DNA of 64,000 nucleotides from Lachnospiraceae bacterium (GTDB lineage: Bacteria; Bacillota; Clostridia; Lachnospirales; Lachnospiraceae). Positions 38,709 through 54,743 of this stretch are shown here, piece after piece. The DNA lies in contig JAQUVX010000001.1 in assembly GCA_028693165.1 (NCBI GenBank), positions 62,001 through 126,000 of the forward strand. Reading direction: 5' to 3'. Below the pieces are notes generated by a model. It saw only the letters and a list, made by a program, of their open reading frames with translations, did no database searches and was not told the DNA's origin. The translations under genes were made by a program, and so were the position numbers. Each line of letters begins with the position of its first letter. Position 1 is the stretch's first letter.

Positions 38709-40325
38709 TTACTCTTTTCCGGCTGAGCGGAACTTCGTGGGTGACACCCCAAAACGCTTCTTAAATACATAGCTGAAATAGTTCTGCTCCTGATATCCGA
38801 TCTTCTGTGCAATCACATAGGTCTTGTCATCGGTCTCGTTCAACAGCTCCACCGCACGGCTCAGACGAACCTCGGTCAGATAACCGATATAGGTCTGTCC
38901 GGTTTCCTTTTTAAACATGGTGGAGAAATACGCCGGGCTCATATGAAGCTCCCTGCAAATCATCTCCACAGACAGATCCGGATCCGGATAATGCTCCTGG
39001 ATATAGCTTTTTGCCTCCACGATCACCTTTTTTGTAGTATTGTCCCGTTCCCGGTTCAGAACTTCATTCATGCGGCAGCCCACCGCAATCATCCAGGTCT
39101 CAAATTCATCTCTGCGCTGAATGGTCATCAGGATATCCCGGTACTGATCCTGGGTATTGAACATATCACCCGGATTCAGATCGTACTGCTGCATCAGCCT
39201 TGTCATACAGTTCACAATGGACATCATGTAAAGCTGATGCTGACGCAGATGCACCCTGGCATCCTCCATCCGTGCAATCAGCTCCTTGATTGTGGTCTCA
39301 ATCTTTTCTCGAGGGCCGAATTTAACCGCGGCCACGAGCGCCGCTTCCTCCTGACTGGTCATCTGCAGGCTTCCGCGGTTGACCGGCTCCACATCATTGA
39401 TGTAGATCGGTTTTCCTCCGCCCACGATCGCCTTATAGCCCAGGGCATCGATGGCAAGCTGGTAGGATTTTCCGATCTGCTCTAAATCCTGACAGCCGCA
39501 GCCGACTCCGATGGTGATAGGTACCTGCAAAATCTTTTTGCTCTCCTTGCAGATTTCGTTGAGCAGGTCAATCAGTCCGGTCTGCGTATTCTCCTCATCC
39601 ACCGCCGCAATCAACGTCAGCCCCGCTGTGGAATTGAAGATGGAGAAACGGTAGCATTTTTCCAGATTATCCTCCATAAGCTGCTTGACGGAGATGGGAA
39701 TCAGCTCCTGATGTAGAGAAAGCACGCGCTCGGCCGTCTGCTCCTCCTGCTCCACGGCGATCACGGCGGCCAGCCATTTGCGCGCCCCCAGGATATCAAT
39801 CTCATACTCCTTGAGTTTCTTTTCGATCTCCTCGCTTCCCACGGCACTGCGCACCATATCGTTTAAGAACAGCTCACGCAGAATGGGAAGGCTGCTCCGG
39901 TAGCTGTCGCGCAGCAAGTTCACATTGCGCCTCTGCTCGATCTCCTCGTCCAGATTTTCCTTTACCCGGCCCAGGATCTCGGTCAGCTCCTCCACGTTGA
40001 CCGGTTTTAAGATATACTCGGTCACATTCAGCTTGATAGCCTGCTGCGCATATTCAAAATCATCAAAGCCGGAAAAAATCAGTACCTTGATGGACGGATA
40101 TTTCTGTCGGATTCTTGCCGTCAGAGTCAGACCATCCATGTAGGGCATACGGATATCGGTCATAACCACATCCGGTTCCAGCTGTTCGATCTTTTCCAGC
40201 GCTTCCTGTCCGTTCTCCGCGTCCCCCGCCACCTCAAATCCCAGTCGTTCCCAGTCTATTTTTCGGATAATGCCTTTGCGCACTTCCTCCTCATCGTCCA
40301 CCAGAATGATTCGATATAAGCTCAT
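38709..40325 (-). CDS. YesN-type response regulator with AraC DNA-binding domain
   Basis: A 538-residue response regulator. The receiver domain (1-120) has the acidic pair Asp10/Asp11 (ILVDDE), phospho-acceptor Asp57 (VVMTDIRMPYMDG) and Lys in EYILKPVNV. A long middle region (about 130-430) of the YesN type follows, then two AraC helix-turn-helix motifs (about 437-535; LSVEMICRELHMSPAYFSTM and TYVIAQKIGYQEQNYFSYVF). The ATG overlaps the cobD stop codon in ATGA, so it is translationally coupled to the cobamide operon. AAGGAG lies about 12 bases upstream. It probably activates sugar-uptake genes such as mglBAC. Confidence 0.94.
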   Translation of the reverse strand: MSLYRIILVDDEEEVRKGIIRKIDWERLGFEVAGDAENGQEALEKIEQLEPDVVMTDIRMPYMDGLTLTARIRQKYPSIKVLIFSGFDDFEYAQQAIKLNVTEYILKPVNVEELTEILGRVKENLDEEIEQRRNVNLLRDSYRSSLPILRELFLNDMVRSAVGSEEIEKKLKEYEIDILGARKWLAAVIAVEQEEQTAERVLSLHQELIPISVKQLMEDNLEKCYRFSIFNSTAGLTLIAAVDEENTQTGLIDLLNEICKESKKILQVPITIGVGCGCQDLEQIGKSYQLAIDALGYKAIVGGGKPIYINDVEPVNRGSLQMTSQEEAALVAAVKFGPREKIETTIKELIARMEDARVHLRQHQLYMMSIVNCMTRLMQQYDLNPGDMFNTQDQYRDILMTIQRRDEFETWMIAVGCRMNEVLNRERDNTTKKVIVEAKSYIQEHYPDPDLSVEMICRELHMSPAYFSTMFKKETGQTYIGYLTEVRLSRAVELLNETDDKTYVIAQKIGYQEQNYFSYVFKKRFGVSPTKFRSAGKE

Positions 40326-44293: not shown

Positions 44294-44809
44294 TTATTTT
44301 AGCTGAATTGGAAGCCCGTATACCACCTCAGTTACCTGATCAGCCAATTCCGCCAGCCGGACATTGATCTGTCCCAACAGGCGAATGTACCGCTCCGTAT
44401 CCGCATCGTATCGGCACCCATCCGAAAACACCTCATTGGTTACTATGATAATGTGTTTTGTCTGTTTTTGCAAGTGCCGGATTCCCTGCCCGATGCGATC
44501 ACAGATCTGCGCATCGCTCCCGCCCACCTCAAACTGTTCATTCGCCGCCAGATTGGACATGCATTCCAGCAAAAGCACCCCGTTATCTTCCGGAAGCACA
44601 AGCTGCTCCAACTGACTGTAGCATTCGATCGTGTGGAACTGCTTGTCCGCCCGCATGGCGCGGTGGCGCGCAACACGCTGCCGGCCTTCCTCCCCCCACG
44701 GCTGCATCGTCGCCACATAATAGCGAACCGGTGAAGGCAGCTCCAGCAGCTGCTGCTCCGCATAAGCCGATTTTCCGCTGGCGCTTCCTCCTGTGATCAG
44801 ATGCATCAT
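44294..44809 (-). CDS. cobU: Adenosylcobinamide kinase / adenosylcobinamide-phosphate guanylyltransferase
   Basis: A bifunctional enzyme that phosphorylates adenosylcobinamide and adds GMP. The 171-residue protein starts HLITGGSASGKSAYAEQQ (P-loop), followed by RYYVATMQPWGEEGRQRVAR with the HR segment RHRAMR that bears the guanylylated His, the aspartate/glutamate strand VLLLECMSNLAAN, and HIIIVTNEVFSDGCRYDADT. Canonical versions read VTNEVG-G-VP, so this one deviates near the last site. It overlaps the cbiT-cbiA stop by ATGA. Confidence 0.93.
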   Translation of the reverse strand: MMHLITGGSASGKSAYAEQQLLELPSPVRYYVATMQPWGEEGRQRVARHRAMRADKQFHTIECYSQLEQLVLPEDNGVLLLECMSNLAANEQFEVGGSDAQICDRIGQGIRHLQKQTKHIIIVTNEVFSDGCRYDADTERYIRLLGQINVRLAELADQVTEVVYGLPIQLK

Positions 44810-46740
44810 GGTGTTGTCCCCTCTTCCAAAAAGGTTCTCATCCAGTCCGGATTCGACCGGTAATACAGATGCGGGAATCCCGCAAGCATGGAGGCGGTCA
44901 CATACATACAGCTCCAGCTTCGCCCGGTCCCCGGCTTTCTTGCTGTCCAGTCCTTCCCCGGTGCCGTGCTGTCCCAGTAATGGAATTCATGTGCGCGGAT
45001 TGGATCGTCCTCCGGCCCCAACGAAACATAGCCGAACCGTGACAGCTTCCCTGTCCGAAATCCGTCCGCCGGAATGACACCTGCCATCGGATACACTGCT
45101 CCGTCCGTCCCCTCCAGCGTCCGGTGCAGATACAAAAAGCCTCCGCACTCGGCCAGCAGCTTCACACCCCGCTCTGCCGCCCGGCGTATTGCCTGACACA
45201 TGCTCTGGTTTTGTGAAAGCTCCCGCGCGTAATTTTCCGGGTATCCGCCGCCTAAAAGCAATCCATCCAGACATTCTGGAAGCTGTGCATCCCGCAGCGG
45301 GCTGAAGAACACCAGCTCCCACCCCAGCTCCCGCAAAAAATCCAGATTTTCCTGATAGTAGAAGCAGAATGCCTCATCCATGGCGACGCCCATACGGCGA
45401 AGCGGCTGCCGCTCGTCCGCTTCCGCACCTGTCCCGGTTTTGAGTGCCCCGGTTTCAAGCGCACCCGCCTGGCGCGCCAGGTTCTCGATCGCCTCCACAT
45501 CCAGACAGGCTTCCAGCTTTTCTGCCAGACGTGCGATCTTGCTTTGAAGTTCTTTCTGCTCCGCCGGTATAGTCAGCCCAAGATGACGGCTTTCCAAAGC
45601 GGCCTCCTCACATTCCGGCACGGCTCCGATACAGCGCACGCCAAGCTCCTCCAGAACCGGCCGCAGTCGCTCTAACATCATGGGACTTGTCCGGTTTAAG
45701 ATCACCCCGGCGATATGGCTGTCCTTTTGATAGGTCATGAATCCTTTGAGCTGCGCCGCCAGTGACAGGCTGCTCTTCTTTCCATCCATAACCAGAATCA
45801 CCGGCGTGTCTGTGATGCACGCAATCTCATAGGTGCTTGCACGCAGTGCATTTCCGGCAATCCCGTCATAATAGCCCATCACGCCTTCGATGACTGCCAA
45901 ATCCGCACCCGCCATCTTCTGTGCCAGCAGCGCGTTTAATGCGTCCTTCTCCAGAAAAAAGCTGTCCAGATTGCAGCCTGGGATATCCAGCACATAGCGG
46001 TGAAACATGGGATCGATATAATCCGGTCCGCATTTGAAGGATACACAGTGATGCCCGCGCTGTTTCAAAAGCGCCAGCAAACCGGTGGTCAGAACCGTCT
46101 TCCCGCTTCCGCTCGCCGGTGCCGCCAGAAGAATGCGGGGCATGGCGGATTGCATCGACTGGTCTGGATGCGGCTTCCGCCTCTCCATCGTGATGATATA
46201 GACCGGATTTTGTCCCTGCATCACATGATATCCGCCGCGCGCTTGGGCGCGTGCCACCTGCATGCTGATGATCTCATGTTCCAGATCGTGTTCCGGGCCA
46301 TGTGCCTTCAAATATGTGATTACCTGACTCAAGGTTTCCAGCGCAATCACATTGATAACCACACGCACGTCTGGATTTTGTGCAAACAGAAGCTCCAGAA
46401 TGGCTTCGATCTGTCCGCCGCTTCCACCTAAGAACACCCTGTCCGGGGCCGGATATCCGGCCAGTGTTTCCGGCACGCGTCCGGGAACAACCGTAATATT
46501 GTGCGCTCCGTGCCGGTCTGCATTGGCGCGGATCAGATCACAGCCTTCCTCCTTTTGCTCAAAGGCAAAGACCTGCCCCTGTCTGGCCAAAAGCGCTGCC
46601 TCCACCGAGACGGAACCTGTCCCCGCACCGATATCATAGACAACGCTGTCCGCCTCCACCTCCAGCTTGGACAGTGAAACTGCCCGCACCTCACTCTTGG
46701 TCATGGGGATTTTTCCCCGGATAAAATTGATATCGTTCAT
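44806..46740 (-). CDS. cbiA: CbiT-CbiA fusion: precorrin methyltransferase/decarboxylase plus cobyrinate diamide synthase
   Basis: A 644-residue fusion. Residues about 1-190 are CbiT, the C15-methyltransferase and C12 decarboxylase step: IPMTKSEVRAVSLSKL, VYDIGAGTGSVSVEAALLA (SAM loop) and DRVFLGGSGGQIEAILELL. Residues about 200-644 are CbiA, the glutamine-dependent a,c-diamide synthase: RILLAAPASGSGKTVLTTGL (P-loop), FKCGPDYIDPMFHRY, VIEGVMGYYDGIAG, and a class I amidotransferase part with LLLGGGYPENYARELS and nucleophile Cys in LLAECGGFLYL and HEFHYW. The two enzymes act at separate points of the pathway, so fusion does not reflect consecutive steps. Coupled to genes on both sides by four-base overlaps. 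Confidence 0.93.
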   Translation of the reverse strand: MNDINFIRGKIPMTKSEVRAVSLSKLEVEADSVVYDIGAGTGSVSVEAALLARQGQVFAFEQKEEGCDLIRANADRHGAHNITVVPGRVPETLAGYPAPDRVFLGGSGGQIEAILELLFAQNPDVRVVINVIALETLSQVITYLKAHGPEHDLEHEIISMQVARAQARGGYHVMQGQNPVYIITMERRKPHPDQSMQSAMPRILLAAPASGSGKTVLTTGLLALLKQRGHHCVSFKCGPDYIDPMFHRYVLDIPGCNLDSFFLEKDALNALLAQKMAGADLAVIEGVMGYYDGIAGNALRASTYEIACITDTPVILVMDGKKSSLSLAAQLKGFMTYQKDSHIAGVILNRTSPMMLERLRPVLEELGVRCIGAVPECEEAALESRHLGLTIPAEQKELQSKIARLAEKLEACLDVEAIENLARQAGALETGALKTGTGAEADERQPLRRMGVAMDEAFCFYYQENLDFLRELGWELVFFSPLRDAQLPECLDGLLLGGGYPENYARELSQNQSMCQAIRRAAERGVKLLAECGGFLYLHRTLEGTDGAVYPMAGVIPADGFRTGKLSRFGYVSLGPEDDPIRAHEFHYWDSTAPGKDWTARKPGTGRSWSCMYVTASMLAGFPHLYYRSNPDWMRTFLEEGTTP

Positions 46741-48257
46741 GCCTTATTCTCCTCTATTACCACAGCTGTCAGGGTGGTATCCGCCCAGTCCAGCAGTTCG
46801 TCCGCCCGGCGCACCAATAGCTGCTCATCTGGATATCCCATACGAATTCCCGCCGTCACATGTGCAGAACCAAAGCCCGCCACCGTGAGCTTTCGACACA
46901 GGCTTCCAAGCTGTTCTGTGCCGCCCAACAGCAGAAATACGCGTCCGTGCTCCCGCAGCAGCGCAGCCGGGTCACACACCCGCCCATGTGCACTCGCGAG
47001 ATAAAGGTGTTCCCAGCTCACCTGCATTCTGGCGCAAAGACAGCTCACAGATGAAATCCCCGGACAGATTCGGATCTGCCAGGACAATCCGCGCTGTTTC
47101 AGCTCTGCAAGCAAAGAACCTGCCCCGCTGTAAAATCCGGTATCTCCGGAATAGACAACCGACACCTTGCGGTAGGATGTCTGCTCCTCCAGCCAGTCCG
47201 CCGTCTGCGGCGCAAGGTAGATGGGATTCTGAAACGCCTGTGTCGTCAGGTTCCGTACATCCGCAAGCATCCGGGGCGCACCAAGCACCGCGTCGCACGC
47301 GTTCAGTGCATCTGCGGCCTCCAGCGTTAATTGACGGCCTCCGCCCATCCCCATACCGATCAAGGTCAGGCATCTGGGTGATTCTTCTTGTTCTGGTTCT
47401 GTGCCTCCTGGCACTACACCGCCCGGTACTTCGTCGCCCGGCACTGTCTCCCGCAGCCGCAGTTTCGCTTCCTCCATCGAGATTCCGCGCTCCTGAACCG
47501 GGCGCGCCAGCACGATCACCGAAACTCCGCACGCCATGGCCGCCTGCATCTTTTCTTCAAAACCGCCGCGGCTCCCGGATTCCTTTGTCACCAGCCAGCC
47601 CGCGTGACTCTGACGCAGCATGGCACAGTTCATCTCCACGGAAAAGGGACCCTGCACAGCCATCAGCTGCCCGCCGCGTATCCCAAGCGCTTCGCACTGG
47701 TGCAGGACACGGCTGTCTGGAAGCACACGCGCATAGATTCGCTCCCGTAGCTCCGGCACCGATGCAAACTGCTCCAGCTCTTTGCTTCCCGTGGTCAGAA
47801 ACACCGGTCTCTGATCCGTCCCAAGCAGTGCAAGCGCTTCCGGAATCGTGGCAACCGTATAGACCTGCCCACATTGCTCCGCAGCCTGCGCGCGATCCGC
47901 CAAGTCCGCTGAGTCCGCCGGGTCCCGCAGCACCTGATTCGCTGAGTCCCGCAGCACCCGCTCATAAGGAATCGCAAGGCCGGTGCACAGTTCTCTGATC
48001 TGTCGGGTCGCTTCCTGGGCATAAGGATGCGTTGCGTCCAGCACAAGATTCGGTCTGTACTGTTTTAACAGTTCACACATGGCCGGCCGATCCAGTGCTC
48101 CCCGGTGAACCTGTACGCAGGCATTCTCCGGCAAAAGCAGCTCGCCGTACTCGGACACCACGCTGACCAGCACCGAAATCCCGTGATCCGACGCATATTC
48201 CGCCAGCTCCCGCCCCTCTGAAGTCCCTCCGAATATGATGATTCTATCCTCTGTCAT
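46737..48257 (-). CDS. CbiJ-CbiE fusion: precorrin-6A reductase plus C5-methyltransferase
   Basis: A 506-residue fusion. Residues about 1-275 are CbiJ/CobK: IIIFGGTSEGRELAEYASDH, VLDATHPYAQEATRQIREL, VFLTTGSKELEQFA and MAVQGPFSVEMNCAMLRQ. Residues about 295-506 are CbiE, a tetrapyrrole methylase: LTLIGMGMGGGRQLTLEAAD, VSVVYSGDTGFYSGAGSLLA and PGISSVSCLCARMQVSWEHL. Two low-complexity stretches stand out, RDSANQVLRDPADSADLADR inside CbiJ and repeated VPGxxVPGG in the linker; both are built of near-identical DNA units. AGGAG precedes the ATG, which overlaps cbiG by 14 bases. Confidence 0.92.
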   Translation of the reverse strand: MTEDRIIIFGGTSEGRELAEYASDHGISVLVSVVSEYGELLLPENACVQVHRGALDRPAMCELLKQYRPNLVLDATHPYAQEATRQIRELCTGLAIPYERVLRDSANQVLRDPADSADLADRAQAAEQCGQVYTVATIPEALALLGTDQRPVFLTTGSKELEQFASVPELRERIYARVLPDSRVLHQCEALGIRGGQLMAVQGPFSVEMNCAMLRQSHAGWLVTKESGSRGGFEEKMQAAMACGVSVIVLARPVQERGISMEEAKLRLRETVPGDEVPGGVVPGGTEPEQEESPRCLTLIGMGMGGGRQLTLEAADALNACDAVLGAPRMLADVRNLTTQAFQNPIYLAPQTADWLEEQTSYRKVSVVYSGDTGFYSGAGSLLAELKQRGLSWQIRICPGISSVSCLCARMQVSWEHLYLASAHGRVCDPAALLREHGRVFLLLGGTEQLGSLCRKLTVAGFGSAHVTAGIRMGYPDEQLLVRRADELLDWADTTLTAVVIEENKA

Positions 48258-49350
48258 CCTTTTTTGCTCCTATCTTCCACGGTTTTTCTGCCACTGCAAC
48301 CGTCACACCCTGATAAATTTCCTTGCCCGCCAGAAGCTTTCCTCCCGGCCCTGCACCGAGAAGTGCCGCGCGCTCACAGACATTTCCAACTCCTGTCACG
48401 CTGCGGACAAATTCCGATTCGGCCTGACTTCCCGCCTCTTCCGAAAGCTCCTCTGCGCTATAGGTAAGAAACGGCAGCTGCCAGTCCTGCACAAGTGCCA
48501 GAAGCCCGGCTTCCTCCCGTTTCAGATCAATGCTTGCCGCCTGCTCAATCCCGCGCAGATCCAGATTGTGCTTCACAAATGCTTCGCGCACGGCACACTC
48601 CAGCACCGCACGCTCCGTCCCTCGACGGCAGCCGATGCCCACCGTCAGCGTTTTCGGAATCATGCGCAGGATCGCCGCCTGCTCCGGCAGAAACATGGAC
48701 ATCGTGCTGTCCGGTTCAGGGCATACCCGGACGGTCAGCCACACATTGTGCGCGCACAACTGACCGCGGGCATAATCCGCCGGAACCAGTTCTGTCAGGG
48801 GATAATCACTGTAAAATCCTACCACCTCCCCGTTCACCAGCGCCGCAGCAACCTCGGCCGCAAGCCTGCGGTCCGACAACACCAGGCCGCGTTCCTTCGC
48901 CCACACATCCGGCGCCGTCTTTCCCTGCACGTCCGAAGCCGTCGTGATGACCGGAACCGCGCCTGTAATCTGCGCCGCTCTGCGCGCCAGAAGATTGGCA
49001 CCGCCCACATGACCGGACAAGAGTGAAACCGCATAATTCCCCTGCTCATCCAGCACCACAACCGCCGGATCTGTGAGCTTGTCCTTCAGACAGGGGGCAA
49101 TGGCACGCACCGCAATGCCCGCAGCGCCTATGTAGATCAATCCGTCCAGCGCTGCAAACCGCTCCGCCGTCCATTCCCCGACCGACTGCTCCACCGCGCA
49201 GATACCCGGTTCTTCCTGCACCTCATTTAAAAATTTCTTCTGCACATATCCCCGACAGTCTTCCCCCTGCTCCGTAAAGCCTTTGACCAGCTTCCTGCAT
49301 ATCCCGCAGCCCGCCTTCGTAAAACTGATTACCGCAAGTCTCAGTCCCAT
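48244..49350 (-). CDS. cbiG: Cobalt-precorrin-5A hydrolase CbiG
   Basis: CbiG opens the delta-lactone of cobalt-precorrin-5A and releases acetaldehyde in the anaerobic pathway. The three-part domain order is clear: an N-terminal part with LRLAVISFTKAGCGICRKLV, the central IYIGAAGIAVRAIAPCLKDK, VVVLDEQGNYAVSLLSGHVG and GANLLARRAAQITGAVPVIT, and the C-terminal part with TVGIGCRRGTERAVLECAVR and SVTGVGNVCERAALLGAG. The start at 49350 has GGAGG 11 bases upstream, within the end of cbiD (10-base overlap). An upstream ATG at 49368 is the alternative. Confidence 0.94.
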   Translation of the reverse strand: MGLRLAVISFTKAGCGICRKLVKGFTEQGEDCRGYVQKKFLNEVQEEPGICAVEQSVGEWTAERFAALDGLIYIGAAGIAVRAIAPCLKDKLTDPAVVVLDEQGNYAVSLLSGHVGGANLLARRAAQITGAVPVITTASDVQGKTAPDVWAKERGLVLSDRRLAAEVAAALVNGEVVGFYSDYPLTELVPADYARGQLCAHNVWLTVRVCPEPDSTMSMFLPEQAAILRMIPKTLTVGIGCRRGTERAVLECAVREAFVKHNLDLRGIEQAASIDLKREEAGLLALVQDWQLPFLTYSAEELSEEAGSQAESEFVRSVTGVGNVCERAALLGAGPGGKLLAGKEIYQGVTVAVAEKPWKIGAKKDDRG

Positions 49351-50558
49351 CGCACCGTTTTCCTCCATCGTTCCAGCAATCGTCTGGCTCCGTCCGTCTC
49401 TCCGATCTCCTTTTGAGCCGAGGAGAATACCACCACCTGAATATCCAGGGTGCCGCCAGACCATCTAAGCATCTGCCTGCGCACCTTCTGCGCCACATAT
49501 TGCAGCACCTTTTTATCCAGCCCCGCTTCTTTTAAAAGGGACAATGCTTCCTCCGTCGTATTGCACGCCCGTACCTGTCCGACCACCTGATATCCAGCCG
49601 CTTTCTGTCCGCTATCCGCTCCAGATGCTTCCCTGCAAATCTGCTCCGTGATGCCGGCCAGTTCCTCCATGCGCCCATCCCCATATTTGGAATGTGTGTT
49701 TGTTCTTCCGGCCGCCACCTTGATGAGCTTTCCGATATGTCCGACAAACAGCACCGCCTGAAGCCCTTCCCCGCCGATCATCTCCACCGCCTCGCCGACA
49801 AAATTGCTGCACAGCACCGCCTTACCAAGCGGAATCTGCCATTCCTCCTGCAAAAACGCCTCCCCATAATTTCCCGGAGCCATCAAGAGAATCCCTCCGC
49901 CGTTGACCGCCTGCATGTGGATGTCCAGGCGGATCGTCGCAAGCAAAGCCTCCTCGCTCATGGGCTTCACGATCCCTGTCGTGCCGAGAATGGAAATCCC
50001 GCCCTCAATTCCAAGCCGGGGATTGAAGGTCTTTTCCGCCAGCAAAACACCTTCCGGTATCGCCACCTCCACCAGCAGTTTCCCATCAAACGCCGCCCGC
50101 CGGCACACCTGATCCACCGCTTCCAGAATCATCCGGCGCGGAACCGGATTGATGGCGGCATGGCCGACCGGACAGGAAAGCCCCGGCCTGGTCGCCATTC
50201 CGACCCCGGTGCCTCCGGCCAGATAAAGATTCGGATACGTTTCCAGCCAGTATCCCTGTCCTCTTTGTCTTTGCTCCTCCAACCCCTGATCATCCAGCTC
50301 CTGCACGCCGGCACAGACCCACGCTCCATGCGTCACGTCGGGATCATCGCCGGCATCCTTCTGTACCTGAAACTGCCATGCCGATCGCTCCTCATCGCAG
50401 GGTTTTACCGCAATCCGCACGGTCTTTCCCCCTGGGAGCACCACGTCTGCCTCCTGCGGGCAGATTCCAGTCAACAAAAAAAGGGCTGCAGCCTTCGCCG
50501 CAGCCGACGCACAGGTACCGGTTGTATATCCATTTCGTAAATTGCGTTCCTTCATCAT
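49341..50558 (-). CDS. cbiD: Cobalt-precorrin-5B C1-methyltransferase CbiD
   Basis: The first gene of the cobamide operon, 405 residues. CbiD methylates C1 of cobalt-precorrin-5B. Signatures: LRNGYTTGTCASAAAKAAAL at the N-terminus, GGTGVGMATRPGLSCPVG, GLE/GIEGGISILGTTGIVKPM, LLMAPGNYGEAF and VGHIGKLIKVAAGRTNTHSK. The ATG has no ribosome site; instead a near-perfect sigma-A promoter ends six bases before it, so the message may be leaderless. Presence of CbiD and CbiG indicates the oxygen-independent route. Confidence 0.95.
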   Translation of the reverse strand: MMKERNLRNGYTTGTCASAAAKAAALFLLTGICPQEADVVLPGGKTVRIAVKPCDEERSAWQFQVQKDAGDDPDVTHGAWVCAGVQELDDQGLEEQRQRGQGYWLETYPNLYLAGGTGVGMATRPGLSCPVGHAAINPVPRRMILEAVDQVCRRAAFDGKLLVEVAIPEGVLLAEKTFNPRLGIEGGISILGTTGIVKPMSEEALLATIRLDIHMQAVNGGGILLMAPGNYGEAFLQEEWQIPLGKAVLCSNFVGEAVEMIGGEGLQAVLFVGHIGKLIKVAAGRTNTHSKYGDGRMEELAGITEQICREASGADSGQKAAGYQVVGQVRACNTTEEALSLLKEAGLDKKVLQYVAQKVRRQMLRWSGGTLDIQVVVFSSAQKEIGETDGARRLLERWRKTVRWD

Positions 50559-50888: not shown

Positions 50889-53800
50889 TTAATTCTCCTC
50901 GGTGCTGCTCTTAACGGTCTCACCGAGGTCTTTTACCTTTTCTTTCTGCTCCGTCACAAACGCCTCGGACTGCAGCTTTTGAAGCATCGTCGCTTTCGCA
51001 AACTCCACCGGCTGATTGACAACCACCTGCGGGAACGGAATACCGATATCATACTTGTCAAACAACAGTTTGATTTCACGGTTCAAATCGCGGATCAACT
51101 GTACGCGGTCACCCTCTGCACATTTGGCAACCAGACGAATGTCGACGCTGCTGTCGCCCAGTGCCACCACGCCTTTGTAGAACGGTCCTTCCACGATCGC
51201 CGGCAGACGCTCCTTCACGTGCGGCAGCTCTTCACGCAGCACGCTCTCAACACGCTCCAGCGATTCCCCGTACTCGATGCCTACATCACAGGAAGCAAAG
51301 GAGAACTGCTTCGTCATGTTGATGACACCGGTCACACTGCTGTTGCTGATAATCTTGATGTTGTTGCTCGCATCCTTGATCTTCGTGGTACGCACACCAA
51401 TCTCCATAACGGTGCCGCGCCAGTCTCCGATCGTGACGATATCGCCCACGCGGAACTCACCCTCAAACACGATAAACAATCCAGCTAAAATATCGCTGAT
51501 CAGGGCCTGCGAACCGAGACCAATGATCACAGACATAATACCCGCTGATGCAAGCAGAGTCTTGGTATCCACGCCAAACATCCCCAGGCAGTAATACAAA
51601 AGCGCCAGTATCGTGAAGTATTTGATCACATTGTCAAGCAGTCTGCATACGGTCTCACCCCGCGCGCCGAATGTCTTTGAGAAGAACATCAGCAGTCTCC
51701 GCACGATGGCCGAGGCAACATTGACCGCAACAAACAGGATAATCGCATTGGTGATGGCAAAGAGGTTGAAGGATCTCTCCCATTCTCCCCCTAATATGTA
51801 ATGCATGACGGAGTCCGGCTCAAAGAAATAATCCTTGTATGCGATCACGAAGAGCATCCCCACCGCCAGCACGGAAATCAGCCAGCCAAGCAAGGACAGC
51901 AACTTCTGCTCCGGAGTCTTCTCCTCCCAGTCCACACCGCGGTCACCGCTCCAGCGTTTTGCCGCCGCGACTGTCTTGGAAAGCCCGCCATCCGGCATCA
52001 CCACATCGACCATCTCATTTCCGCCCGCTTCTTCCATCTTCTTTGGCTTCGCCTGATAGCCCTCTTTGCTCAGAGAAAGGATCAGACCGATCAGAAGCAG
52101 ACACAAAAAGCTGCCCGCCGCCGTAACCAGAGCGATCGGAAGACGATACCGTGTCAGCTTGCTGGACGGAATTGCCACATAGAGATAATAATTCTCGCTC
52201 TCTTCCGAAGAACAGTAATATTTGGTGCCGCGAATGGTAATAAAATCCTCAAATCCATCGTGAAGATCAAAATCGGTCAGTCCATAATCATAGACGCTCC
52301 GGTCAATCAGCTTCTCATCCGGATAATATGCAAAGGTATGGTCTGACTTGCGCACCGCAAATGCAAAGCCCTGTGAACCAACCTTCACCCCGGAAAGCAG
52401 GGAACCGATGGACATATTGTCAAGAAGGTTCTGCAGCTTTTCCGGTGCAATGCAGATCTCCACAAATCCGGCCTCATGCTCCTCCCCGGTTCTCATGGTG
52501 ACCCCGATGTACTGGCGAAGCTCTCCGCTTACCTCATCCTCCTTCGCATCCTGAATCAGATAATCCACATAGCCCTTCATCAGACTGCGGAATTCGTAGG
52601 ACTGTTCCTCCGGATTCGTACTCAGCGTGAAATCCCAGAACGGAGAATCCGTCGCAACCGTATGTCCGTTCTTATCAAATACCCAGATATTCTCAACTCC
52701 CAGCACACGGCTGAGTTCCGCCAGACTTTCCTCGCTCTGAAGCTCCGGGTTGGTCTTTAAGATCTCCGCCAACACCTGACATTTGTTCAGATAGCGCGTG
52801 TTGTACTGTTCGGTAAGTACCTTGACCTCTTCCTTATTCTCCTCGTTGTTCTTGAGGATTGTCTCAAGCGGATGGCGGTCGCTCATGGTCTGCCGCGACA
52901 GCGCAAACAGCGTCTGCATAAACATGGACACCACAATAATGGCGATCAGTCCCATGCTTGAGACCGTTAGGATCTTCCTGCCGAGTTTCCGGTTATAATA
53001 AAGCGGCCCGACCTTGCGGTAATTCGTCTCCTTATCCTTGCTGCTGTGTTCGTGGCTGCTCTGAATAAACATGGCATAGGCGATCACAAGGGTCACCGCC
53101 AGCATAAACGCCAGCAGGGTCACAATCACCGTCGTCAGACGGGAAGCGTGAATCTCTGCCTGCGGAATCGCGCAGACCGCATAGACATCATCGATCAGAC
53201 GGGAAGAGATAAACAGACGCTCCCCATTGACCGTCACCCAGCCGGACTGCTGATTCTTCAAAATTCCTGCCGTCAATCCGGTGCTCGGTGCCCCACGTCC
53301 GATCATGGTCTCATCCGGATGATACAGGTACGCATAGTCCGTATGGGACACGGCAAGCGCATAGCCGCTCAGGCCGACACTGATCTTGCCGAAAATACTC
53401 TCCACCGAGGTGGATCGCTCTAACAGCTCATCCATCTCCTGCGGGTTCTGCACAATGACAACCATCTTGTCCGCATCGATGCGTGCGCCATAATACCGCA
53501 TCGCCACGCCATCCTGCGTGATATCGAACGGCTTTGACGGTTCCGTCCCGTTCAGCGCCTGTCGGAGCTGATTGTAACGGCTGATGGAATAATCGACCTC
53601 CTGATCCACCGCTGTGGCAAGGACCTGTCCCTTCGCATCCAGAATCAGAAGATTGTCCACCTGAAACAGCGTCTGCCACTGACGCATCTGTGTGTCTGTA
53701 TAGGCAAATCCGGTAATCTTGCGTGCCATGAAGGCTGCCGTCTGCGCCTTGGCGATGTACACCTCATCGTAGCTTTCCCGAATCTGTTCGGCATCCGTCT

Positions 53801-53972
53801 CCCGCTTCTGCATGAGACCTTCGATCTGATTTAAAATATCCTCGTTCGCTGTTTCCTGATTCCGGACGGACAAAGCAGTCTGCAAATTCAGCAAAAATCC
53901 GCCGAGCAGCAGAACCGATATGATTTCCACCAGAACCATAATCTTTAATTTGTTTTTCAAGCGTTTTGACAT
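50889..53972 (-). CDS. Tandem Cache-sensor / MscS mechanosensitive channel fusion
   Basis: A 1027-residue membrane protein of unusual build. TM1 about 10-30, Cache-like extracellular domain 35-275, TM2 279-303, cytoplasmic link, TM3 334-357, second Cache-like domain 360-605, TM4 610-634, link, three TMs near 690-712, 735-755 and 783-800, then the MscS pore helix (LLASAGIMSVIIGLGSQALI, 806-825), beta domain (FRVGDIVTIGDWRGTV, 840-855) and C-terminal alpha/beta vestibule. The two Cache domains are internal paralogues: residues 198-226 and 530-557 share VGxxGxAxAV, YxPDE and IxR in register. Ordinary MscS has about 280 residues. AAGGAG precedes the ATG; the stop of a family-3 binding protein lies 18 bases upstream. 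Together they may form a ligand-controlled channel. Confidence 0.88.
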   Translation of the reverse strand: MSKRLKNKLKIMVLVEIISVLLLGGFLLNLQTALSVRNQETANEDILNQIEGLMQKRETDAEQIRESYDEVYIAKAQTAAFMARKITGFAYTDTQMRQWQTLFQVDNLLILDAKGQVLATAVDQEVDYSISRYNQLRQALNGTEPSKPFDITQDGVAMRYYGARIDADKMVVIVQNPQEMDELLERSTSVESIFGKISVGLSGYALAVSHTDYAYLYHPDETMIGRGAPSTGLTAGILKNQQSGWVTVNGERLFISSRLIDDVYAVCAIPQAEIHASRLTTVIVTLLAFMLAVTLVIAYAMFIQSSHEHSSKDKETNYRKVGPLYYNRKLGRKILTVSSMGLIAIIVVSMFMQTLFALSRQTMSDRHPLETILKNNEENKEEVKVLTEQYNTRYLNKCQVLAEILKTNPELQSEESLAELSRVLGVENIWVFDKNGHTVATDSPFWDFTLSTNPEEQSYEFRSLMKGYVDYLIQDAKEDEVSGELRQYIGVTMRTGEEHEAGFVEICIAPEKLQNLLDNMSIGSLLSGVKVGSQGFAFAVRKSDHTFAYYPDEKLIDRSVYDYGLTDFDLHDGFEDFITIRGTKYYCSSEESENYYLYVAIPSSKLTRYRLPIALVTAAGSFLCLLLIGLILSLSKEGYQAKPKKMEEAGGNEMVDVVMPDGGLSKTVAAAKRWSGDRGVDWEEKTPEQKLLSLLGWLISVLAVGMLFVIAYKDYFFEPDSVMHYILGGEWERSFNLFAITNAIILFVAVNVASAIVRRLLMFFSKTFGARGETVCRLLDNVIKYFTILALLYYCLGMFGVDTKTLLASAGIMSVIIGLGSQALISDILAGLFIVFEGEFRVGDIVTIGDWRGTVMEIGVRTTKIKDASNNIKIISNSSVTGVINMTKQFSFASCDVGIEYGESLERVESVLREELPHVKERLPAIVEGPFYKGVVALGDSSVDIRLVAKCAEGDRVQLIRDLNREIKLLFDKYDIGIPFPQVVVNQPVEFAKATMLQKLQSEAFVTEQKEKVKDLGETVKSSTEEN

Positions 53973-53990
53973 GACAATGCTCCTTCTCCC

Positions 53991-54743
53991 CTATTTCCAC
54001 CTGGTGTTCAGTTCTTCCAACGTGCCGTCCGCAGTCCAGGCATCCATCGTTGCCTGAATCCTGGCGGTAAGCGGAGAACCCTTCTTCGTGGCAATGCCGA
54101 ACTGCTGCTCGGCCAGTGTATCCGGAAGAAGACTGCGCTCCTCGTTTAAATATCCCTTCAGGATACTGCCGTCGGTGCATACCGCATCCACATCGCCCAC
54201 TTCCAGAGCCTGCATCAGCTCCGGATACGTCGGATAACCGGCAAAGGTCACACGGCCGCCCTGTTTCGCCATCGCTTCCTGTAAGAATTCGTGGGCTGTC
54301 GATCCCTCTGTGACGCCGATGCACTTGCCGTTTAAATCTTCCAGATTCTGAAATAGTGAAGAATTTTCGACCATGACCTTCAAATGGTCGGTATAATACG
54401 GAGAAGAAAAATCATAGTTTTCTTTGCGTTCCTCTGTAATCGTAAAGGTCGCTACCACGCAGTCGACAGTCCCTTCTTCCAATGCCTGTTCCCTGGTCTG
54501 CGCTGTGACTCCGACCGGTTCCATATTCTGATAGCCAAGCGCCGCCGCCAGATTTCTGGCAAGCTCCACCTCCATACCGGAATAAGTCTCTGAAACCGGA
54601 TTGAAATATCCAAATCCGGGAACCGAATCCCGTACCCCCACACGCAGCGTTCCCGCCTGTGCCCCAACTGCCTGACAGCCTGACAGAGCCAGGGACACCG
54701 CCGCACAAAGCAGCAGGCCGGCTCTGAATTTTTGCCTTCTCAT
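53991..54743 (-). CDS. Family-3 (amino-acid type) solute-binding lipoprotein paired with the MscS fusion
   Basis: A 250-residue lipoprotein with lipobox Cys23 (ALSGC) and the SBP_bac_3 fold: LRVGVRDSVPGFGYFNPVSE, YSGMEVELARNLAAALGY, VDCVVATFTITEERKENYDF (matching the family signature around TITxxR), SSPYYTDHLKVMV, GKCIGVTEGSTAHEFLQEAM and VDAVCTDGSILKGYL. Arg in TITEERK and Asp in DAVCTD are the usual amino-acid contacts. No permease or ATPase is near. The next gene, 18 bases on, is the Cache-Cache-MscS protein. GGAGGAG precedes the ATG, within an inverted repeat. Confidence 0.92.
   Translation of the reverse strand: MRRQKFRAGLLLCAAVSLALSGCQAVGAQAGTLRVGVRDSVPGFGYFNPVSETYSGMEVELARNLAAALGYQNMEPVGVTAQTREQALEEGTVDCVVATFTITEERKENYDFSSPYYTDHLKVMVENSSLFQNLEDLNGKCIGVTEGSTAHEFLQEAMAKQGGRVTFAGYPTYPELMQALEVGDVDAVCTDGSILKGYLNEERSLLPDTLAEQQFGIATKKGSPLTARIQATMDAWTADGTLEELNTRWK

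Follow-up and report, generated by a model that had tools for sequence, protein, structure and literature searches.

A conserved gene pair of a family-3 solute-binding lipoprotein and a tandem dCache-MscS channel, a putative two-input sensory valve

The question raised by this locus is why a solute-binding lipoprotein should be encoded directly ahead of a mechanosensitive-type channel. The window analyzed here is a 64,000 nt stretch of a Lachnospiraceae bacterium genome (GCA_028693165.1, contig JAQUVX010000001.1, positions 62,001–126,000), and the two genes lie on its minus strand. The upstream open reading frame (53991–54743, stop codon at 53991–53993) encodes a 250 amino acid orphan family-3 solute-binding lipoprotein. 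The downstream one (50889–53972, ATG at 53972) encodes a 1027 amino acid protein in which two sensor domains of the dCache type, here termed Cache1 and Cache2, are fused to an MscS channel. The intergenic spacing is 18 nt and holds a Shine-Dalgarno-like sequence, GGGAGAAGGAG (53980–53990, minus strand), which by reading is a good ribosome-binding sequence ahead of the channel ATG. Both open reading frames, their positions and the spacing are as given in the initial annotation of this DNA. We consider it probable that the two genes form one sensory valve, in which the threshold of the MscS pore would be set by the liganded binding protein docked on Cache1.

The channel displays the MscS pore, beta and C-terminal domains at residues 781–978, all above the Pfam cut-offs (PF21088, PF00924, PF21082). 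Its best PDB match is MscS (3udc) at residues 737–986 (E-value = 1.2e-38), and PF00924 is found in all 45 aligned full-length channels of the family. Residues 1–320 and 321–690 are an internal duplication (BLASTP E-value = 1e-20, 23% identity across 303 columns). Pfam shows no Cache match for the window channel by itself up to an E-value of 1; the dCache_1 profile matches 39 of the 45 aligned full-length channels. A search of PDB sequences with the profile of alignment A1 gave no real match. In structure searches residues 39–276 and 358–607 of the AlphaFold model match Cache proteins, as does Cache1 when modelled alone. The sensor domains also have the dCache hallmark, a long N-terminal helix followed by two PAS-like modules. 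Non-Cache outer domains are thus ruled out by the structure searches and the dCache_1 matches of the relatives, and the earlier description of tandem TM-Cache-TM duplicates fused to MscS is confirmed by the BLASTP duplication, the Pfam MscS domains and the models. The aligned motifs VGxxGxAxAV and YxPDE which had been singled out are present, but they are not a special signature; we take them to be part of the ordinary membrane-proximal dCache region.

The order of segments along the chain, all on the minus strand, is as follows. Transmembrane segment 1 (TM1, residues 9–32, 53877–53948) is a hydrophobic stretch within a model helix at residues 3–85, with a predicted cytoplasmic N-terminus. It is followed by dCache domain 1 (residues 33–277, 53142–53876), whose membrane-distal module (residues 86–196, 53385–53717) is the proposed docking face. 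TM2 (residues 278–302, 53067–53141, model helix 278–309) and TM3 (residues 333–355, 52908–52976, model helix 328–407) are likewise given a predicted topology. TM3 leads into dCache domain 2 (residues 356–609, 52146–52907), the duplicate of Cache1. No sensor module is better conserved than the distal part of Cache2. Model helices and charged loops read in the sequence place the Cache domains outside the cytoplasm, as a prediction. After TM4 (residues 610–633, 52074–52145, a model helix of the same extent) a conserved cytosolic linker with the pattern VVMPDG...RW...W.EKTPEQK (residues 634–686, 51915–52073) joins the sensors to the channel. R673 and W674 are invariant in eight aligned rows, and the linker is a possible coupling element in a part of the model of low confidence (low predicted local distance difference test values at residues 640–680). 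TM5 (residues 687–711, 51840–51914, model helix 687–711) is an extra helix ahead of the MscS core. The core consists of MscS TM1–TM3 with the pore helix (residues 737–837, 51462–51764), identified by Pfam, 3udc and the model, and of the beta-domain with the C-terminal vestibule domain (residues 838–986, 51015–51461), identified by PF00924, PF21082 and the structure match.

The binding protein displays the SBP_bac_3 domain (PF00497, 95.4 bits against a cut-off of 26.4, E-value = 3e-27) and starts with a signal peptide and the lipobox LSGC, as read from the sequence. Its best PDB relative is 2v25 (E-value = 7.5e-41), which has the PDB name major cell-binding factor. The 2v25 protein is the aspartate-binding PEB1 (PMC6069109; this and the other papers cited are drawn on in part). 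In Mycobacterium GlnH aspartate is held through its alpha groups by Ser164, Arg169 and Asp250 and through its side chain by Arg147, Trp232 and Thr162 (PMC6069109). Going by alignments and spacings, we read R84, R106, Y173 and D191 of the window protein as the counterparts of GlnH R147, R169, W232 (here Tyr) and D250. These four residues are identical in 53/53 channel-linked binding proteins and also in 21/21 relatives linked to ATP-binding cassette (ABC) genes, and position 101 is Ser or Thr in all 53 (T101 in the window). The alpha-group contacts (Ser/Thr, Arg, Asp) and the side-chain Arg of PEB1a/GlnH-type Asp/Glu binders are therefore represented by T101, R106, D191 and R84. R84 is shared with 2v25 and with the glutamate binder 5eyf and not with the glutamine-binding 4f3p. 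Because of the kept pocket residues and this R84 pattern, an acidic amino acid, aspartate or glutamate, is the best guess for the predicted ligand.

Conservation of the pair was followed in two samples. The first is one genome-collection scan with patterns from a four-row sensor alignment (four linked sequences), which gave 56 loci. The binding-protein gene is directly upstream of the channel gene on the same strand in 50 of these, and in 41 of the 50 the two genes overlap by 10 nt or are 9–16 nt apart, where the overlap varies with the choice of start codon. The loci without the partner are L098, L101 (broken), L105, L106, L108 and L109 (not a channel). Hosts of linked pairs are Lachnospiraceae, Oscillospiraceae and other Bacillota and, in the Actinomycetota, Collinsella, Olsenella, Slackia, Enorma and relatives (Coriobacteriia). 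The second sample is a profile search of 149 Coriobacteriales genomes, with 26 matches. The regions of 23 of these were examined together with one from a Bacillota genome of another family (G707), and the partner is present in all 24; the remaining three matches were already linked in the pattern scan, and at least three of the 24 regions repeat contigs of the first sample. In three of the 24 the raw pair distance is distorted, since the channel frame is extended in L180 and L184 and broken in L200. Chance proximity of the two genes is ruled out by linkage in 50/56 and 24/24.

Within the window's family 52 of 299 genomes match the sensor part, many over part of it only. Twenty regions from 18 of the 52 genomes were examined and five hold both channel and partner, which gives six pairs counting that of the window. 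Across the phylum 11 of 398 genomes match the sensor profile at an E-value of 1e-20, and frames longer than 1000 amino acids are found in two only, the window's genome and G707. That the binding protein is kept with the channel elsewhere, which the initial annotation had made a test of its proposal, is borne out by the linkage in both samples, but this does not extend to every Cache-MscS channel, as ten family loci are without it. The pairing marks a large sub-lineage.

A tree of the binding proteins places 45 channel-linked rows in one starred clade. Two further pairs, window/L054 and L042/L045, branch from an open fork next to the ABC-linked proteins; with its root left open, the tree fits one origin of the channel-linked type as well as more than one. 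A profile of the channel-linked type was run against the 299 family genomes, at most eight candidates per genome being scored. It gives six matches of 381–438 bits, each beside a channel, and the next match is at 275 bits or less; this gap is inflated because the profile was built from the same six.

Linkage to a channel sets the protein apart from its importer-type relatives. A control set of 26 ABC loci (18 lower profile matches and 8 others) reduced to 21 distinct proteins when five duplicates were dropped, and all 21 adjoin an ABC ATPase and at least one PAAT permease. One search for relatives gave 28 rows, of which three served as ABC controls; the others were partners of channels or more remote paralogs. 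No PAAT permease is found in the flanks (about 6 kb at most, and less where a contig ends) of the 56 pattern-scan and the 24 profile-found loci. ABC-ATPase-like matches of other kinds are present in the flanks of 12/56 and 8/24 loci. Nine of these flank ATPases were typed by Pfam and none is PAAT-type by architecture: an exporter membrane domain is fused to five (L094, L179, L182, L183, L184), in three the ABC_tran domain comes after an FHA or FHA-like region (L055, L061, L062) and in one ABC_tran stands alone (L190). The absence of a PAAT permease from the flanks, the types of the flank ATPases and the 21/21 control rule out a piece of an importer operon. In the window itself no PAAT-type permease is detected and PAAT-ATPase-like matches are at least 17 kb away, which agrees with the earlier statement that the lipoprotein has no ABC permease or ATPase beside it.

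The genes downstream of the channel vary. An ABC ATPase with a significant FHA match is found there at L061:9030–10730 and L055:9001–10191, and one with only a weak FHA-like (Yop-YscD_cpl) match at L062:9992–11446. In the Coriobacteriales loci L179 and L182–L184 the downstream gene is instead an exporter-type ABC gene.

The binding protein could be a structural or scavenging lipoprotein for an ABC transporter encoded elsewhere, with the operon serving co-expression only and the channel answering tension and Cache ligands. The window's genome does have a complete glutamate-type ABC system (G000:C42) which could accept a second binding protein, and the channel loci without a partner fit such an arrangement. 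We regard it as unlikely in view of the strict adjacency in two phyla (50/56, 24/24), the finding that, among the candidates scored in the 299 genomes, the channel-type binding protein was not seen without a channel, and the residues of Cache1 that follow the presence of the partner.

These residues appear when 43 channels with the partner are compared, column by column, with 13 channels without it. Columns were taken as conserved at 90% or more in linked channels, and as lost at 25% or less in unlinked ones. In Cache1 the lost columns are 3 of 4 in the helix, 10 of 18 in the distal module and 4 of 17 in the proximal module. In Cache2 they are 1 of 6, 0 of 29 and 2 of 10, respectively. Elsewhere 0/7 columns are lost in the TM5 region, 5/38 in the pore helices, 4/62 in the cytoplasmic domain and 8/22 in the remaining segments. 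L039 is omitted from the column counts, L047 and L053 from the second channel tree, and L072, L105, L106 and L108 from the Cache1 alignment (41/45 rows).

Cache1 R132, R137, S146 and R159 are present in 43/43 linked channels. This includes the distant L042 and L045, which are 21–24% identical to the window in this part of the chain and stand apart in the pore trees (the channel trees are read as unrooted, their two outgroup rows being wrong reading frames). Among the 24 profile-found channels R132 is kept in 23/23, R137 in 23/23, S146 in 22/23 and R159 in 24/24 of the rows that have the position. In the 13 unlinked channels the four residues are mostly lost or deleted. The conserved Cache1-distal residues are what a docking face would look like. 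Cache2, in which Q457, S458, Y459, E460 and F461 of the distal module are invariant in 45 aligned rows, seems to act in its own right as a sensor or transducer of wider conservation.

The same comparison bears on another possibility, that the Cache domains bind the ligand and do the sensing while the binding protein merely concentrates the amino acid and hands it to Cache1 or Cache2. Many of the matched Cache structures hold small ligands, often amino acids, and the invariant Cache2-distal residues could be read in this way. However the conservation of Cache2 is independent of the binding protein, with no distal column lost, and the binding protein retains its own pocket. The double-PDC sensors LuxQ and HptS moreover use a separate binding protein (PMC8534201). 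Hand-over therefore appears improbable. Since Cache1 residues track the partner and LuxP-LuxQ provides a precedent, docking on Cache1 with the ligand still bound is the most likely course. The interpretation in the initial annotation is partly supported, with docking in place of presentation of the ligand to the Cache domains.

The sensory valve that we favor would work as follows. The lipoprotein would bind glutamate or aspartate outside the cell and close around it, and the closed protein would dock on the membrane-distal module of Cache1. Docking would alter the packing of the paired TM1–TM4 helices and, by way of TM5 and the conserved cytosolic linker, would change, in one direction or the other, the tension at which a presumably heptameric MscS pore opens. 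The cell could in this way set its readiness to release osmolytes, glutamate included, by the external level of acidic amino acids. Cache2 would sense a second signal or serve as a transducer. The most economical reading is a valve with two inputs: membrane tension, which the MscS core would feel, and the liganded binding protein, whose effect would pass through Cache1. The two TM-dCache-TM units of each chain could form an internal pseudo-dimer, which would fit a seven-fold pore.

Several observations weigh against the docked-valve reading. Six of the 13 unlinked rows are gapped at R132, R137 and R159 (five also at S146), and these gaps are counted as loss. Partial sets of the residues are kept in the unlinked L098 (R137, R159), L038 (R132, R159) and L053 (R137, S146). 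The linked rows are mostly one clade and the conservation of Cache1 could reflect shared descent. One scan pattern is inside the Cache1 footprint and covers R132 and N134. Among 44 aligned relatives 27 carry the other pattern only, 12 the footprint pattern only and five both; the footprint pattern is in 0/24 profile-found channels, in which the residues are kept nonetheless. Both samples lean to linked channels, and hence to the sub-lineage, because the patterns and the profile (six linked rows of eight) came mainly from these.

In the pocket, the residue corresponding to GlnH Thr162 (T99 in the window) varies among the 53 channel-linked proteins, with Cys in 33, Thr in 12 and Ala in 8, and the pocket-near changes K38R, T101S and T149N set the channel-linked class apart from the ABC class; ligand preference may therefore have moved. 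E181 is another change specific to the channel class. A pattern search finds a lipobox in only 27 of 50 channel-linked binding proteins. N-termini were compared in L077, L082, L087, L090–L095 and L104, and several Oscillospiraceae proteins lack the lipobox cysteine although a signal peptide is present. These may be free proteins, an unexpected trait of a docked sensor in Gram-positive bacteria. Finally, ten loci of the window's family lack the partner (L037, L038, L039/L040, L041, L043, L044, L046, L047, L050 and L053), and the pore with Cache2 can therefore work without the binding protein.

From the same N-terminal comparison, the Coriobacteriia binding proteins start with a twin-arginine-like signal and a lipobox.

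The neighborhood of the pair includes genes related to water and ion movement. An aquaporin/MIP gene (PF00230, E-value = 3.8e-51) adjoins the pair or is within about 1.2 kb of it in 15 of the 56 loci, in both phyla (L057, L061, L064, L065, L068, L074, L078, L083, L090, L091, L093–L095, L099 and L101, where the MIP gene is a fragment and the channel is broken). As some of the loci are close relatives, they amount to fewer than 15 independent cases. Three arrangements are seen, upstream on the same strand, upstream and divergent, and downstream, and a MIP gene is also present in 4 of the 24 profile-found regions (L193, L194, L196, L199). The baseline, taken in the window's family, shows that MIP genes are sparse there, with 18 in 17 of 60 genomes. 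The window itself has no MIP gene. At L043:3623–5781 the K+-uptake genes TrkH and TrkA immediately precede a Cache-MscS gene that has no SBP_bac_3 partner.

Another neighborhood of aquaporin and MscS is seen in the window's genome (G000:C32:83416–87698), where the single MIP gene found and a 291 amino acid frame with an ordinary MscS match are separated by about 3.4 kb.

These neighbors are relevant to the view that the protein is a receptor and not a valve, the MscS part being a heptameric scaffold that signals to cytosolic partners, with conduction incidental. Some members of the MscS superfamily have been described as not mechanosensitive (PMC4560390), and LysR-type-like genes, so named by reading, are near 8 of the 56 loci. 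On the other side, nothing is missing from the pore helix, beta-domain and vestibule, which have the most conserved columns, Pfam shows no cytosolic output domain in the channel, and the aquaporin and K+-uptake neighbors point to osmotic work. We consider a pure receptor very unlikely. The LysR-type-like genes are in the flanks of L076, L077, L084, L086, L087, L090, L102 and L104.

A valve of this form shares parts with several known systems. The MscS superfamily (E. coli MscS, YnaI, YbiO and MscK, and bacterial bCNG) has a pore helix, beta-domain and vestibule homologous to those of the window channel. Members of this superfamily are known with added transmembrane domains, with domains that bind ligands and with large loops outside the cell (PMC4560390). 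The window channel differs in having two dCache sensors predicted to be extracellular and a binding protein of its own in trans, and unlike the bCNG channels it has no Pfam match to a cyclic-nucleotide-binding domain up to an E-value of 1. LuxP-LuxQ and HptA-HptS likewise consist of a separate binding protein and a membrane receptor with a double-PDC (dCache-type) domain (PMC8534201). However the output of LuxQ and HptS is a histidine kinase, whereas the window system has an MscS pore and two dCache domains per chain, and its complex is predicted from co-conservation.

The GlnH-GlnX-PknG system of Actinomycetota is similar in that an Asp/Glu-binding lipoprotein with corresponding pocket residues is co-encoded with a two-sensor membrane protein, and signalling by protein contact has been proposed for it (PMC6069109). 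For the GlnX sensors four-helix bundles are predicted, and the signal is put out through a Ser/Thr kinase, unlike the dCache-MscS arrangement (PMC6069109). Among the PEB1a-type Asp/Glu ABC binding proteins is the nearest solved homologue of the window protein, 2v25, with the four pocket residues in common; the window class differs from this type by the lack of a PAAT permease in the flanks and by the changes E181 and K38R. In ionotropic glutamate receptors the same fold class controls a channel, and the window binding protein has a weak PF10613 match (E-value = 1.4e-05, below cut-off). The binding domain of these receptors is fused to a K+-channel-like pore, whereas in the window it is separate and the pore is MscS.

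A description of a Cache-MscS channel was not found among the papers listed by searches of the open-access PubMed Central literature, in keeping with the initial annotation, which knew of no described system of this form; one may exist elsewhere. In the portion available of a census of Cache domains, the ion-channel class consists of calcium-channel type outputs (VWA_N, VGCC_alpha2), and the word MscS does not occur in that main text (PMC4822843). The component families are thus known, and their combination and its conservation are undescribed as far as we could search.

If the proposal is true, a soluble binding protein sets the opening of a channel and nutrient sensing is joined to turgor control in common gut bacteria. 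The pair would then be a natural test of how a ligand tunes a force-gated pore and of how a dimer-type Cache signal reaches a seven-fold channel. MscS-type channels export glutamate in industrial strains (PMC6110860, PMC12541555), and for this reason the pair may have a bearing on glutamate release by gut anaerobes. We also hold a wider proposal possible, although on balance doubtful: that external glutamate or aspartate gates this bacterial channel, which arose when a binding protein of ABC type was recruited to an MscS pore with two sensors. Such a channel would be a counterpart, by convergence, of the ionotropic glutamate receptors and would join a chemical and a mechanical signal in one pore. 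The pseudo-dimer built into each subunit would let a dimeric sensor drive a heptamer, and Cache-MscS would be a general platform for different binding proteins, such as the NMT1-type of L106 and the Bmp-type of L046.

No Rfam matches were found at window positions 40000–64000, and promoter and terminator scans gave about as many matches as in shuffled sequence. A tie to the neighboring cobalamin genes (44806–50558, named by reading) was rejected, as none of the 18 most recurrent neighbor clusters looked cobalamin-like and the Rfam search was empty. Broken frames are seen in the channels of L101, L103 and L104 and in the binding protein of L084, several of them in metagenome assemblies. L037 has an in-frame stop, and only its 865 amino acid piece was used in the alignment and trees.

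Channels without the SBP_bac_3 partner may have other partners, and the arrangements at L043, L046, L106 and L108 are single cases each. At L050:2468–3433 (minus strand) a lipoprotein-like protein of 321 amino acids with no Pfam match is encoded 18 nt after the Cache-MscS gene. At L038:5607–8297 two SBP_bac_3 domains are fused to a histidine kinase, 212 nt upstream of the channel. An NMT1-type binding protein and a fused ABC permease-ATPase precede the Cache-MscS gene at L108:1877–4362, and a Bmp/PnrA-type binding protein follows it at L046:4430–5536. At L106:9351–10406 the gene of an NMT1-type lipoprotein overlaps the end of the Cache-MscS gene by 4 nt, and the role of partner may fall there to another family of binding proteins.

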